Assembly: GCF_020509005.1 (NCBI RefSeq)
Contig: NC_063023.1
Span: 1,550,001 to 1,614,000 of the forward strand
From: Fulvia fulva
Lineage: Eukaryota; Ascomycota; Dothideomycetes; Mycosphaerellales; Mycosphaerellaceae
Direction: 5' to 3'
Length of the DNA: 64,000 nucleotides
Numbering within the stretch: the stretch's first letter is position 1; every line of letters begins with the position of its first letter. Below are positions 43,505 through 63,516 of this stretch, piece by piece. Below the pieces are notes generated by a model. It did no database searches and had not been told where the DNA came from. It saw nothing but the letters and a program-made list of their open reading frames with translations. Made by a program: the position numbers and the translations under genes.

Positions 43505-45572
43505 TCACATGCCCGGCGATGCACCCTGCATGTAGTGGGCCATGACTGCGGCATAGCCTCCGTACGCGGCGTAGGGGTCTGCAGATGGATTTGCAGCGTA
43601 GTAGGCCGCCCATGCCTCATACTGTCTCTGTTGTTCAGCCGGATCTGTAGCTGCTGGCTCTGCTGCGACAGTTTGGGTCGGGGATTGAGCGCCACCTACA
43701 AAGAGAAGGGTGTTAGCCATACTCCAGAACCACGTGGTAGTGTATTGGATTATGGTGGACCGCGTGAGATACGTGCTGCACGACGCGCTCCACACCATAA
43801 TCTGACACTGCTCGATGCCTGGTGCCCTTCAGAAACGTACCGTAGCCTGCGACAGCTGCTGGCTGCTGGGCGCCGTATCCTGCTCCGTATCCGCCATAGC
43901 TGCTGCCACCTCCATTGCCGTAAGCACTGCCACCACCGTAAGAGCCGGAGTTCTGTCTGTCGCCTCCACGATATCCTCCGCCTCCGCCTCCACGACGATC
44001 ATCGTCCCCACCGTAGCCTTGGCCGCCGCCGTGACCACCATATCCACCGCCGCCGCCGCCCCGGTTTGGAGGACCTCGCTCTTTGAATGCGTCGTATGCC
44101 TCTTTGACTGCATCCAGGAGCGACATACACTGCGATTCTGCCTCGTCTACCATCTGTTGCTCGGGCCCGCTGTGATCAGTCAGCCGTGCACTTCTCATCT
44201 GGCTTACCTTTACTTGACATACGCGACATGCAAATACATCTGCTCATCACTTTCTCGACCAGTGTCGTGCTCCATGAAGCCACTTCCACGACCCTTGATC
44301 TGGACTCGACACCTCGTCTCTTGCTGAATGTGCTTCACGTAACTGCCGCCATGACCGACTACTTGGGCGCGCAGGTTGAAGCCGGGAATGGGTTCGAGAT
44401 CGATTGGTATGCGCTTCTCTGGCCACTTTCGACGACCAAGGGCATCGCGTTCGGGTTCGGGGCGGTCTTCGCGGCGGCGGAATCGGCGTTCGTCGATGAG
44501 GTTCGGTAACTCCTGCTGCATGAGCTCGTTGATCTTCTGCACGGCTTTCTCGAGGCCATCCTTGGTGGTGCTGGTGACGTGGAGGTAGAGTGGTGGGTTC
44601 TTTGCAATGTTAGTACCGCGAATGATGCTTGGATGTGTTCGTGTCACTCACGGCAGCGGTCGCCAAGCTCTTGTCCGGATAGTAGTTTCCGCGGGTAGTG
44701 ACATCTTTAGACATGTAAGCGACTCGACTCGGACCTAAAACAGTAAATGTTGGTGTGCAAGTGGGAGCGTACCGGCGCCAGTCTCTTCTTTGATCTAGAT
44801 GTCACAGGCAGGTCAGCTAATGCAAATGGGGTGGTGGGCTGCCGTCGGCTAAGCACACTAAGTGTAAGTCAAGTATGTTCTCCTCTAATAATGTTCATGA
44901 CAAACCCAATGCTGTTGATCTAGGGTGTGGTGAGAGTTACGAGGACATGCCATGGAATGGCTCTGGGAGTATCAGTGGGCAAAAGTGACGAGGTGAATAT
45001 TTACCATCTTCTGGGTGCTGCCCTTGGTCAGGGTGTAGCGGTTGCGCAGGTCGTTGACCTCGATGTCCTTGATGAAGTCGCCGTCCTGTTGGTAGATTTC
45101 TGCGTTCAGCGTGCCGCCCGAGGCTGGAGTTTCGGAGGGAGATTTGGCAGCGCCGGGTTGGGTGGAGGGGCTCTGTGGATGCTGTTTAGTGCATGTACTT
45201 ACAAAGTGGCGGTCCATTTCCTCGCGCGAGCGGGTGACGACAGTGTCTGGATGTGTCAGCGTGTCATTGGAGACTTACAGATCGAATGGGCGGTACGTCG
45301 ACGTGCTGTATACCTTTCGACTTTTGGAGCGAAGCGTTGATGCGCGCTGCCGCTTCTGCTGCCTTTGCGGCTGCATCCTGTGCTGCAGCGGACTTGTCGC
45401 CATTCGCGGGACTGTCTTCTGTACTCTTGATGGGACTGCGTTCACGCGTCTCGGAGTCCTTCTTGTCATCGGCGGCGGGTGAGCGCGAACGTCGATCGAA
45501 GCGAGACTTGCGTGCTGGCTCTGGCTCGGTCTGGTCGAAGCGCGATCGCTTGCGGGTCGTCTCCTCGGACAT
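43505..45572 (-). CDS. KH-domain RNA-binding protein, KHDC4 (Blom7)-like
   Basis: Seven exons, 45572-45279, 45172-45005, 44794-44773, 44704-44652, 44599-44223, 44169-43841 and 43695-43505, join in phase to 477 residues. Exon 3 is only 22 bp. The N-terminus is an Arg/Ser-rich segment (MSEETTRKRSRFDQTEPEP) ending GIQHVDVPPIRS. Then comes the family core: IEVNDLRNRYTLTKGSTQKM joined to IKEETGADVTTRGNYYPDKS and NPPLYLHVTSTTKDGLEKAV, and a second KH-like part with GFNLRAQVVGHGGSYVKHI (GxxG loop) and TRCRVQIKGRGSGFME. A Gly/Tyr-rich region and a Tyr/Ala-rich tail (YEAWAAYYAANPSADPY) follow. Human KHDC4 takes part in pre-mRNA splicing; a nuclear RNA role here is inferred. Intron 1 (45173-45278) contains a second GTAAGT and could hide an optional exon. 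The last intron is described separately. Confidence 0.87.
43696..43840 (-). mobile_element. Candidate introner-like intron, copy 1 (last intron of the KHDC4-like gene)
   Basis: A 145-bp intron, about three times the length of most introns here. It starts GTACGT and ends ATGGCTAACACCC TTCTCTTTGTAG. Its 3' 25 bases match the PTC5-like intron at 62204-62338 with one mismatch, and an internal ATTATGGTGT matches that intron's ACTATGGTGC. It can fold: GATTATGGTG (43748-43757) pairs with CACCATAATC (43793-43802), enclosing further CGCGT/ACGCG and CGTGC/GCACG pairs. Confidence 0.65.
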
Positions 45573-60681: not shown

Positions 60682-62649
60682 TCAGAGCTTCGGCTTGCCA
60701 TTTGCACCGTTGCCATTAGCAGTAGCACTGGCCTCTTTGTTCAGCTCGACTTGGCCATTACCTTGCCCTTCACCGAAGAAGATGACTTGCACTGTCAGAT
60801 CGTCTCTGTATCTCCGGCTGTAAGGCGAGGGCAGAGTCAGAAGTGCACTGAGCATATCCCTGTCCTTCCCACCTAGCGCATTACGCACAAGATGTGTCGC
60901 GGCGTTCTTGTCCTCGACTACGAAGCGCTGATCACCGCCGGCTACGCCCCATTGCTGTTGACGGACTGGCGCGCGGTGTCCTTCGCTGCCACCTTGATCG
61001 TGGTGCTCGATGGGCAGGTTCGATGCTTTTTGGCTGCTGAACCATGATGACAGCCATCCGCTGCTTGCGTTCTTGGCGGTTGTCGTTGTCGCGGCTTGTG
61101 TCTCCAGCCACTGCCCGACCAGACCAACGACTTCCTCATTTGTCAACATCTCCCAGAGACCGTCAGTGGCCATGACCACGAAGTCGCCGTTGCCAGGCTC
61201 AATCTTTGTCCTCGTGACGACAGGCTCTGCGGTGACATATGGCGGCGTTTCCAGGTATTTGGAGGCAGTACGTCCAAAGAAGTTCCTCTTCATCTTATCT
61301 TGCGTCTCTTTTGACCACTTATAGATCGCATCTCCAAACGCCCGACTGGGCTCCAGTCCACCCAGGATTCTCCCATTCATGGTCACATATGGTTCATTGG
61401 GGTGTTCGGCTCGCAATCGCGCATCTTCCGAGGGTGTACCGCCAGTCTGGTCGACGCTCAGCGCTGTTGCGGTCCACTTTCCGGTATTTCCTCTTCGTCC
61501 AAGCACAGCGCGGCTGTCACCCGTGCATGCTACGCGAAGCTCTTTCGATCGACTGTCGTAGAAAGACAGAAGTGCGCAAGAGCCGGAGAGTGCTGGTGCA
61601 AGGATCTCGGCAGCCACGACTTTCGATTGTGCCTTGAGCACTTTCGTGACTGAGTCGTTCACGATCTCGTTGTCCAGCTTGACGAAGCCCTTCTTGATGG
61701 CTGCGTCCACGGAGTCGGGGTCCGGCAATGTGAGCTTTGGGTCCTGCAGCGCGCTCTTGTACGTCGCGTTCAACTCTCGGGCGACATACGAGACAAGGGT
61801 CTGCCTCAGCTTGGCAGAGGTGGTCCAGCCGGAATGACCATCAAACACTCCCCAAAACATCCAGTCCTGGCTAGCCTTGCCATCTGCCGCCGCAGCGGTG
61901 GTGTTTGGCACTTCCACGATCTTCTCCACATGATCATCCTCGATCGGGTCGTTGCTGGGTATCTGCACCACGTCGTATCTCACCACACCCTCTCCTCTGC
62001 CTACCAGATAGCTCTCCTCGTTTGTTCTTAATTTCGCACTTGCTTGCTCCGGACTTAGCATCTCAAGCACCTTGCGTCCAGAGTTGTCGGTCTCTTTGCT
62101 GATGACTTGATCTGCAGGTATTTGTGCTGTGAAAAGCTGTCCTTGGTCTACAATCAGAGCTTTCCGTACAGCCTCTGGTACTGCTTCAGGGTCGATCGAT
62201 GTACTACAAACAGAAGGGTGTTAGCCATGGTCGTGGAACATGCATCAGTCGATCGTTGCGCAAAGCGCGTCGTGCATCACATGTCTCGAGAGTTGCACCA
62301 TAGTCTCAGGGGCAGACCGACGGCTCTGGACTACGTACCCGGCTGGTGGTGTGGAAGGCGAATGTGTTTGCGCGGTTGCGGCGGTGAAATAGCTCAGCGC
62401 GCTCGATACGGGCGAAACATCTGCTGCTGGAGCCACTGATTGTGCTCTTTGTTGTGTATAGCCGTAGTACAGCGCTGAGGCTCCCACACCGAGCGCGACT
62501 GGGACTGATATGCGTCGCGACAGACGCATGGACGAATGTAGTGGTTGGAATGACCGACTCGCTATCGATCGCTGGAGGGCATTGTGCGCTTTGCGTGGAG
62601 TCGCTGCTCTCCGAGACGTACGCAGGTTCTGGATCACTGCGCGACGCAT
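60682..62649 (-). CDS. PTC5: Mitochondrial PP2C protein phosphatase (PTC5/pyruvate dehydrogenase phosphatase-like)
   Basis: Exons 62649-62339 and 62203-60682 join in phase to 610 residues. The N-terminus MRRAVIQNLRTSRRAATPRK is an Arg-rich presequence followed by a short hydrophobic stretch (VPVALGVGASALYYGY), which fits import into mitochondria. PP2C motifs are SYLVGRGEGVVRYDVVQIPS, MFWGVFDGHSGW (metal-binding Asp in FDGHSG), LSGSCALLSFYD, VACTGDSRAVLG, RILGGLEPSRAFGD and FVVMATDGLWEML; the final metal Asp is in RYRDDLTVQVIFFG. Yeast Ptc5 dephosphorylates and activates the pyruvate dehydrogenase E1 subunit; the same role is likely but not shown. The intron carries a candidate introner-like element. 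RPL31 is divergent from it. Confidence 0.9.
62204..62338 (-). mobile_element. Candidate introner-like intron, copy 2 (intron 1 of the PTC5-like gene)
   Basis: A 135-bp intron that starts GTACGT and ends ATGGCTAACACCC TTCTGTTTGTAG. The last 25 bases differ at one position from the last intron of the KHDC4-like gene (43696-43840). A central stretch resembles the reverse complement of that intron's centre (AGCGCGTCGTGCATCACA on the plus strand here, AGCGCGTCGTGCAGCACG on the minus strand there). Such strand symmetry is expected of elements with inverted repeats. Confidence 0.65.
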
Positions 62650-62929: not shown

Positions 62930-63516
62930 ATGTCGACCAAGACGCAGACCAAGAAGCAGTCCGGCAAGACTGGCCGCAGCGCCATCGAGGATGTCGTTGC
63001 CCGCGAATACACCATCCACCTCCACAAGAGGGTACGTTCAGTTTGATGAAGTCCACGGATGGCGCAGCACATGGCATGTCCACGGCTGCGCATCGGACGG
63101 AAGACTGAGACAAGAGCAACAAGACATCTGACATAATGGACAACAGGTCCACGGTGTGAGCTTCAAGAAGAGGGCTCCTCGTGCCATCAAGGAGATTCGT
63201 GGCTTCGCTGAGAAGGCAATGGTATGTACAGACATCTTGTACTCAATCTCATCCCATCATCTTCACGTGTGTACAAATACTGACTCTTGATCTATAGGGC
63301 ACCACCGACGTCCGCCTCGACCCACAGTTGAACAAGAAGGTCTGGGAGTCCGGCATCAAGGGCGTCCCCTTCCGTCTCCGTGTGCGCATCAGCCGTAAGC
63401 GTAACGACGAGGAGGGCGCCAAGGAGAAGCTTTACTCCTACGTCCAGGCCGTCAACGTCAAGAACCCCAAGGGTCTGCAGACAGTGCTTGTCGAGGATGA
63501 GGCCGACAGCAAATAG
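62930..63516 (+). CDS. RPL31: 60S ribosomal protein L31 (eL31)
   Basis: Exons 62930-63031, 63147-63221 and 63298-63516, with introns of 115 and 76 bp, join in phase to 131 residues. eL31 sits at the exit of the large-subunit tunnel. The sequence is unmistakable: [17 protein letters not shown] joined to [25 protein letters not shown] joined to [20 protein letters not shown], then [20 protein letters not shown] and [20 protein letters not shown]. The N-terminal [17 protein letters not shown] is a basic extension typical of fungi. Intron 1 holds a stable-looking hairpin at 63058-63094. Confidence 0.97.

Follow-up and report, generated by a model that had tools for sequence, protein, structure and literature searches.

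Fulvia fulva, also named Cladosporium fulvum, is the fungus of tomato leaf mould. Introner-like elements (ILEs) of this species and of Dothistroma septosporum have been published, with families such as cf01, cf02, cf08 and ds01 (Collemare 2015, PMC4457414). D. septosporum is closely related to C. fulvum (PMC3510045), and the mean intron length in F. fulva is given as 79 bp (PMC10823647). The symmetry of ILEs is already known, as PMC8469720 quotes from Torriani and van der Burgt, and the same paper attributes to van der Burgt 2012 a preference for AG/GY sites. Ascomycete introner families are described as outliers without TIRs or TSDs (PMC9860276), and for fungal introners others have argued for an RNA-linked route of multiplication (PMC9860276, PMC8469720). 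One of the papers on stwintrons (PMC8469720, PMC12403724) states that these have no sequence similarity to the ILE families of Dothideomycetes.

The window analysed here is a stretch of 64,000 nucleotides of F. fulva (assembly GCF_020509005.1, contig NC_063023.1, positions 1,550,001 to 1,614,000). Two of its introns are, in an explanation that we hold with high confidence, copies of one ILE family of this fungus, in which the subfamily F arose from the subfamily R1 by inversion of an inner stem-loop.

Two ILE Copies of the Window and Their Host Genes

The first-pass annotation had read two long introns in unrelated genes of the window as candidate ILEs. It had put ordinary introns at about 45-60 bp, as against the published mean of 79 bp for the species. 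Both introns were found where it had placed them (Table 1), on the minus strand, and both have the form GTACGT...TAG. As it had also described, their last 25 bases are nearly the same (24 of 25 identical; blastn within the window, E 4e-6), and their centres match in opposite orientation at 33 of 42 bases (blastn, E 2e-4). The ILE reading of both introns is supported by dozens of relatives across the genome, which lie within genes and in coding orientation.

Copy 1 has the stem arms reported for it (Table 1) and folds at -48.2 kcal/mol (z -2.9, 30 shuffles). Its identity to the F consensus (151 positions) is 89%, and its local alignment score is 236 against this consensus versus 168.5 against R1. 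The motif CTAAC within its conserved 3' end is presumably the branch site. Copy 2 has local scores of 108.5 against R1, 86 against the further group R2 and 67.5 against F, while 500 shuffles gave at most 40.5. We consider it a degenerate member of the family because it resembles R1 poorly in the 5' part and in the right arm of the stem; its folding is no better than that of shuffled sequences (z +1.2, 30 shuffles).

The opposite orientation of the two centres had been regarded as what is expected when each copy is an inverted repeat. The likeness is real, but it is not merely a by-product of this symmetry: the family includes two subfamilies with identical ends and an inverted inner stem-loop. 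Copy 1 belongs to F and copy 2 is a worn R1-like element, and therefore the centres match in opposite orientation.

The names proposed for the host genes are borne out by their domains. A KHDC4/BBP-type KH domain (PF22675, 8.2e-30) is encoded upstream of the copy 1 intron, and the PTC5-like product carries a PP2C domain (PF00481; Pfam, 8.5e-37). When copy 1 is spliced, all three joined frames cross the junction for some length and two are open over 120+120 nt; without splicing no frame is open over 60+60 nt. The exon flanks of the KHDC4-like gene contain few stops, which leaves several joined frames open and makes the frame test weak at this site. Removal of copy 2 gives a PP2C protein of 610 residues, and the unspliced frame stops inside the intron. 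The nearest sequence to the spliced protein is a D. septosporum protein (95% identity over 93% of the query). In an alignment of 10 sequences, made at the protein level and so blind to introns, there is no gap at the junction relative to the D. septosporum protein, and in more distant relatives the junction stretch is poorly conserved and partly gapped.

Another gene start in the window (62931-63200), which by eye reads like ribosomal protein eL31, has an intron that begins with GTACGTT and does not carry the 3' block of the family.

Table 1. Position of the two ILE copies, their parts and the neighbouring exons within the window.
Feature	Position	Strand	Remarks
ILE copy 1, whole intron, F subfamily, KHDC4-like gene	43696..43840	-	GT...AG, 145 nt
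Copy 1, conserved 5' end with donor site, 35 nt	43806..43840	-	5' pattern match with 1 mismatch
Copy 1, inner stem-loop in F orientation, 63 nt	43743..43805	-	core score F 62, R 15; stem GATTATGGTG/CACCATAATC
Copy 1, conserved 3' end, 47 nt	43696..43742	-	last 25 bases (43696-43720) are the block common with copy 2
ILE copy 2, whole intron, degenerate, R1-like, PTC5-like gene	62204..62338	-	135 nt
Copy 2, left stem arm and loop, R orientation	62264..62309	-	core score R 36, F 14; matches the opposite strand of copy 1
Copy 2, 25-base 3' block	62204..62228	-	0 mismatches to the family consensus
KHDC4-like gene, last coding exon	43505..43695	-	end read by eye from the open frame
PTC5-like gene, exon 1, coding part	62339..62649	-	610-aa frame once the intron is removed
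PTC5-like gene, exon 2 to stop codon	60682..62203	-	PF00481; end computed from the 610-aa frame

Distribution of the Family in the Genome

The prediction that the genome holds dozens of further copies was confirmed. In the assembly of 67,169,167 bases (14 contigs) the 25-base 3' block has 90 matches with up to 3 mismatches, and the reversed-pattern control has none. Patterns for the core and for the 5' end gave 23 and 27 matches (controls 0 in both cases), and the 3' arm pattern gave 100 (control 1). Two full-length DNA queries gave at least 49 and at least 43 matches, with 40 candidates scored for each, including some second, opposite-strand matches to the same copy. Joined by position, all pattern and full-length matches fall into about 145 places, a figure that includes many individually unread matches as well as shorter related introns, and to which the 3' arm pattern with its one control match also contributed.

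Full-length elements were parsed from 74 of the 90 matches to the 3' block. The other 16 were dropped, since they gave no intron that was 120-180 nt long and had a recognisable 5' end (4 of them have no GT near it); 3 parsed rows not ending in AG were dropped as well, leaving the 71 copies that do. The GT start is partly a matter of construction, because the intron start was set to the GT nearest to the predicted 5' end, and copy 2, whose 5' end was not recognised, was retained with a manually set length. Most members are 145-160 nt long, with a 5' end of 35 nt, a hairpin core of about 63-80 nt and a 3' end of 47 nt. The closest pairs in different places are 92% (F) and 94% (R2) identical, and group means are 0.74-0.79.

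The claim that such copies lie in genes in the coding orientation also stood. Over 120+120 nt a frame is open at 56 of the 71 sites after splicing in sense, versus 21 after splicing in antisense and 4 in sense without splicing. Fifteen sites thus have no open joined frame of this length, and 48 stay open with longer spliced flanks that approach the total length of the unspliced test. Where exactly one frame is open (45 sites), intron phases 0, 1 and 2 occur 13, 17 and 15 times. Pfam was consulted for 18 joined translations, all from outside the window. They had been chosen by eye among the 24 printed out of 44 that were eligible (6 were skipped, partly for low complexity), and in 9 of the 18 a domain spans the junction: AMP-binding, MoCF_biosynth, Cation_efflux, adh_short, Glyco_hydro_35, DEDDh_C, Tubulin_C, DUF5127 and EI24, of which EI24 reaches only six residues past the junction and MoCF_biosynth eight. 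These results show the family, its exact GT-AG boundaries and the restoration of frames by in silico splicing; its members are predicted ready-made spliceosomal introns.

The copies sit at G|G sites. The exon base at position -1 is G in 67 of the 71 copies. G also stands at +1 in 57, and the base that follows is T in 34. Across the 71 sites no target-site duplication longer than 1 base was detected, pairing of left and right flanks at the tested offsets being not above permutation; a 1-base duplication of G would look the same as a GG target.

Two copies, at C3:2673545 (L092) and C3:2748097 (L093), lie in a duplicated segment; both are AT-enriched, as after repeat-induced point mutation, we assume, and both places are occupied. 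The duplicated AT-rich segment was also tried as a source of an empty site: the joined flanks were searched for, and both places found carry a copy. No empty site was seen.

Several unusual relatives were seen elsewhere. At C13:333808-335760 (L059) about 11 ILE units form a head-to-tail array, 3 of F type followed by 8 of an R-type variant. Its units abut without exons, several junctions read TAG|GT, neighbouring units have common tandem duplications of 81 and 195 bases, and one open run of 234 codons is present. Four copies of only 64-104 nt (C1:10470537-10470604, C3:3664646, C5:1426319 and C12:1720604) keep both ends and have lost the hairpin wholly or partly; three of them end in AG. Such copies are a possible route from an ILE to an intron of ordinary length. 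Four other related introns (L103-L106), roughly 110-125 nt long, have similar ends and a reduced core, and the variant of their 3' arm occurs also in a number of other matches to the 3' arm pattern.

Inversion of the Inner Stem-Loop

Core direction was scored for 89 copies, a set that includes 15 added copies, some of them incomplete: 34 are F, 54 are R and 1 is unclear. From these, consensus groups of 25 F, 17 R1 and 31 R2 copies were chosen by core length; the copies at C13:1029644, C13:333930 and C3:2748097 were excluded from the F consensus. The ends of the F and R1 consensus sequences are identical at all 82 positions (35 of 35 at the 5' end and 47 of 47 at the 3' end). Their inner cores agree in 63 of 69 columns (91%) when one is taken as reverse complement, versus 52 of 78 (67%) in direct comparison, and of 425 F x R1 pairs 391 agree better as reverse complement. 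An inverted match of 81 nt at 91% identity is found at C1:7738682-7738762. These comparisons establish that the inner stem-loop reads as an inverted segment between F and R1. The diagnostic stem bases accompany the loop, which suggests that the stem was turned along with it, and the breakpoints seem to lie in the short outer inverted repeat GCAGTG / CACTGC.

If the two cores are opposite, then we can ask: Which direction is the older one? The inner cores of R1 and R2 agree in 60 of 76 columns directly and 48 of 80 reversed. Because the more distant R2 has the R direction, R is taken as ancestral and F as derived, and F probably originated by an inversion between the stem arms and multiplied afterwards.

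Trees were built with 10 of the 89 copies omitted. In the tree of the ends only 1 of 76 inner branches carries a starred value, and F and R are not separated; on this tree (82 columns) orientation needs at least 18 changes versus a shuffled mean of 23.7. On the core tree, made with R cores turned, there are 4 changes and 2 starred branches. Counting inversions by tree gave no firm number, 82 end columns being too few.

One excluded copy, C13:1029644, combines features of both subfamilies. Its left arm agrees with R1 at 16 of 16 positions versus 13 of 16 with F, its right arm has 14 matches with each, and its loop, in F orientation, has 30 matches in 37 columns with inverted R1 versus 28 of 37 with F. 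This is only suggestive of a second inversion; nearly the same pattern would be expected if an F loop had recombined into an R1 element. A wider scheme, in which the core flips repeatedly in the copying cycle, a palindromic double-stranded or hairpin DNA stage allows the loop to be copied either way, and C13:1029644 is an independent flip with different breakpoints, seems to us doubtful.

The hairpin itself appears in several measures. End-to-end folds are predicted for both consensus sequences (-61.7 and -61.6 kcal/mol). The mean fold z across the 71 copies is -1.85 versus -0.06 for adjacent exon of equal length, and z lies below -2 in 32 copies versus 3 of the 71 exon stretches. The symmetry of the outer ends is weak when taken alone, since 61, 54 and 40 of 2000 shuffles were as good for F, R1 and R2. 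In the stem pairs of the 25 F sequences, 19 cells are changed on both sides versus 8.3 (sd 2.6) in shuffles (0 of 500 as high), 11 pairs are changed on both sides versus 7.0 (31 of 500), and the covariation score is 0.125 versus 0.113 (7 of 500). In the same sequences, paired cells are only slightly above shuffles (25 of 500) and pair types are not above them (224 of 500). It thus seems that the spreading lineages retained the stem; arm-to-arm copying within the palindrome could produce the same pattern.

Possible Mechanism of Spread and Its Alternatives

We propose that the stem-loop of an R1-type element would have been inverted between its own inverted-repeat arms, giving F, which would then have multiplied. 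A route through RNA alone is not expected to invert an internal segment, so this inversion would need a step in double-stranded DNA. Quite probably it took place at the DNA level, by template switching or by recombination between the palindrome arms, and the simplest such step would be a template switch within the palindrome of a copy already in place. For the multiplication itself we lean slightly towards an RNA-linked route, through reverse splicing or the capture of spliced-intron RNA at breaks, rather than a DNA transposase. Mobility exactly from GT to AG, insertion in sense, G|G targets and the lack of longer duplications all fit such a route. Since F multiplied after its inversion, the direction of the loop may be dispensable, and we consider it likely that spread is a matter of the ends and the hairpin rather than of loop sequence and loop direction.

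The similarity of two ordinary introns could in principle come from chance and common splicing signals only, because the 25-base block is located at the 3' splice site and all introns have signals of this kind in common there. With 90 matches for this block and none for its reversed form, and with dozens of copies similar over their full length, the probability of this is negligible. A different origin of the opposite cores would be a swap of modules, the same ends having captured different hairpin cores whose reverse-complement likeness comes from a palindromic core. The core is indeed partly palindromic, so that direct identity is also high, and L103-L106 show the same ends with a reduced core; a swap is nevertheless highly improbable in view of the 91% agreement as reverse complement over 69 columns, loop included, and of the long inverted match on C1.

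More weight belongs to a reading of the elements as miniature inverted-repeat DNA transposons that end in splice sites by coincidence and are moved by a transposase in trans, as proposed for many introners of algae. The inner stem and the end-to-end fold of both consensus sequences would agree with it, as would the inversion, which is an event at the DNA level. However, no target-site duplication longer than 1 base was found at the 71 sites, the copies end exactly at GT and AG, insertions are biased to the sense direction, and the outer symmetry of the ends is weak. We therefore consider a transposon origin unlikely and prefer inversion in DNA combined with RNA-linked copying.

F and R1, with identical consensus ends, opposite cores and amplification of both, form a natural experiment on how fungal introners multiply. 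The pair suggests that neither sequence nor direction of the loop is needed for spread, and points to the ends and the hairpin.

Comparison with Known Systems

The ILE as a kind of element is known, and an inverted core with both orientations amplified looks new. No report of core inversion in ILEs was found in the literature searched; the founding 2012 paper may contain one.

The published ILEs of F. fulva are the closest system. Like the present family, they are near-identical introns in unrelated genes with stable folds, in the same species. The available sections of that work (PMC4457414) mention no inverted core, whereas the present family has one, and our groups F, R1 and R2 are not matched to the published cf family names.

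The symmetrical sister stwintrons and cropped introns of Hypoxylaceae and Xylariaceae also resemble the present family in their inverted-repeat symmetry, their lack of target-site duplications, their multiplication in genes and their being functional on the coding strand only (PMC8469720, PMC12403724). They differ in being mostly twin introns with random insertion sites, and the accessible text of these papers describes no core inversion. The DNA-transposon introners of algae and other organisms (PMC9860276) are likewise multiplying introns, many of their families having inverted repeats, and differ from the present family in that the latter shows no duplications.

For the inversion, the chloroplast trnH-psbA spacer is comparable, since there too a segment associated with palindromic sequence inverts (PMC2903610). 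The spacer locus stays put, however, whereas the flipped form of the ILE has itself multiplied.
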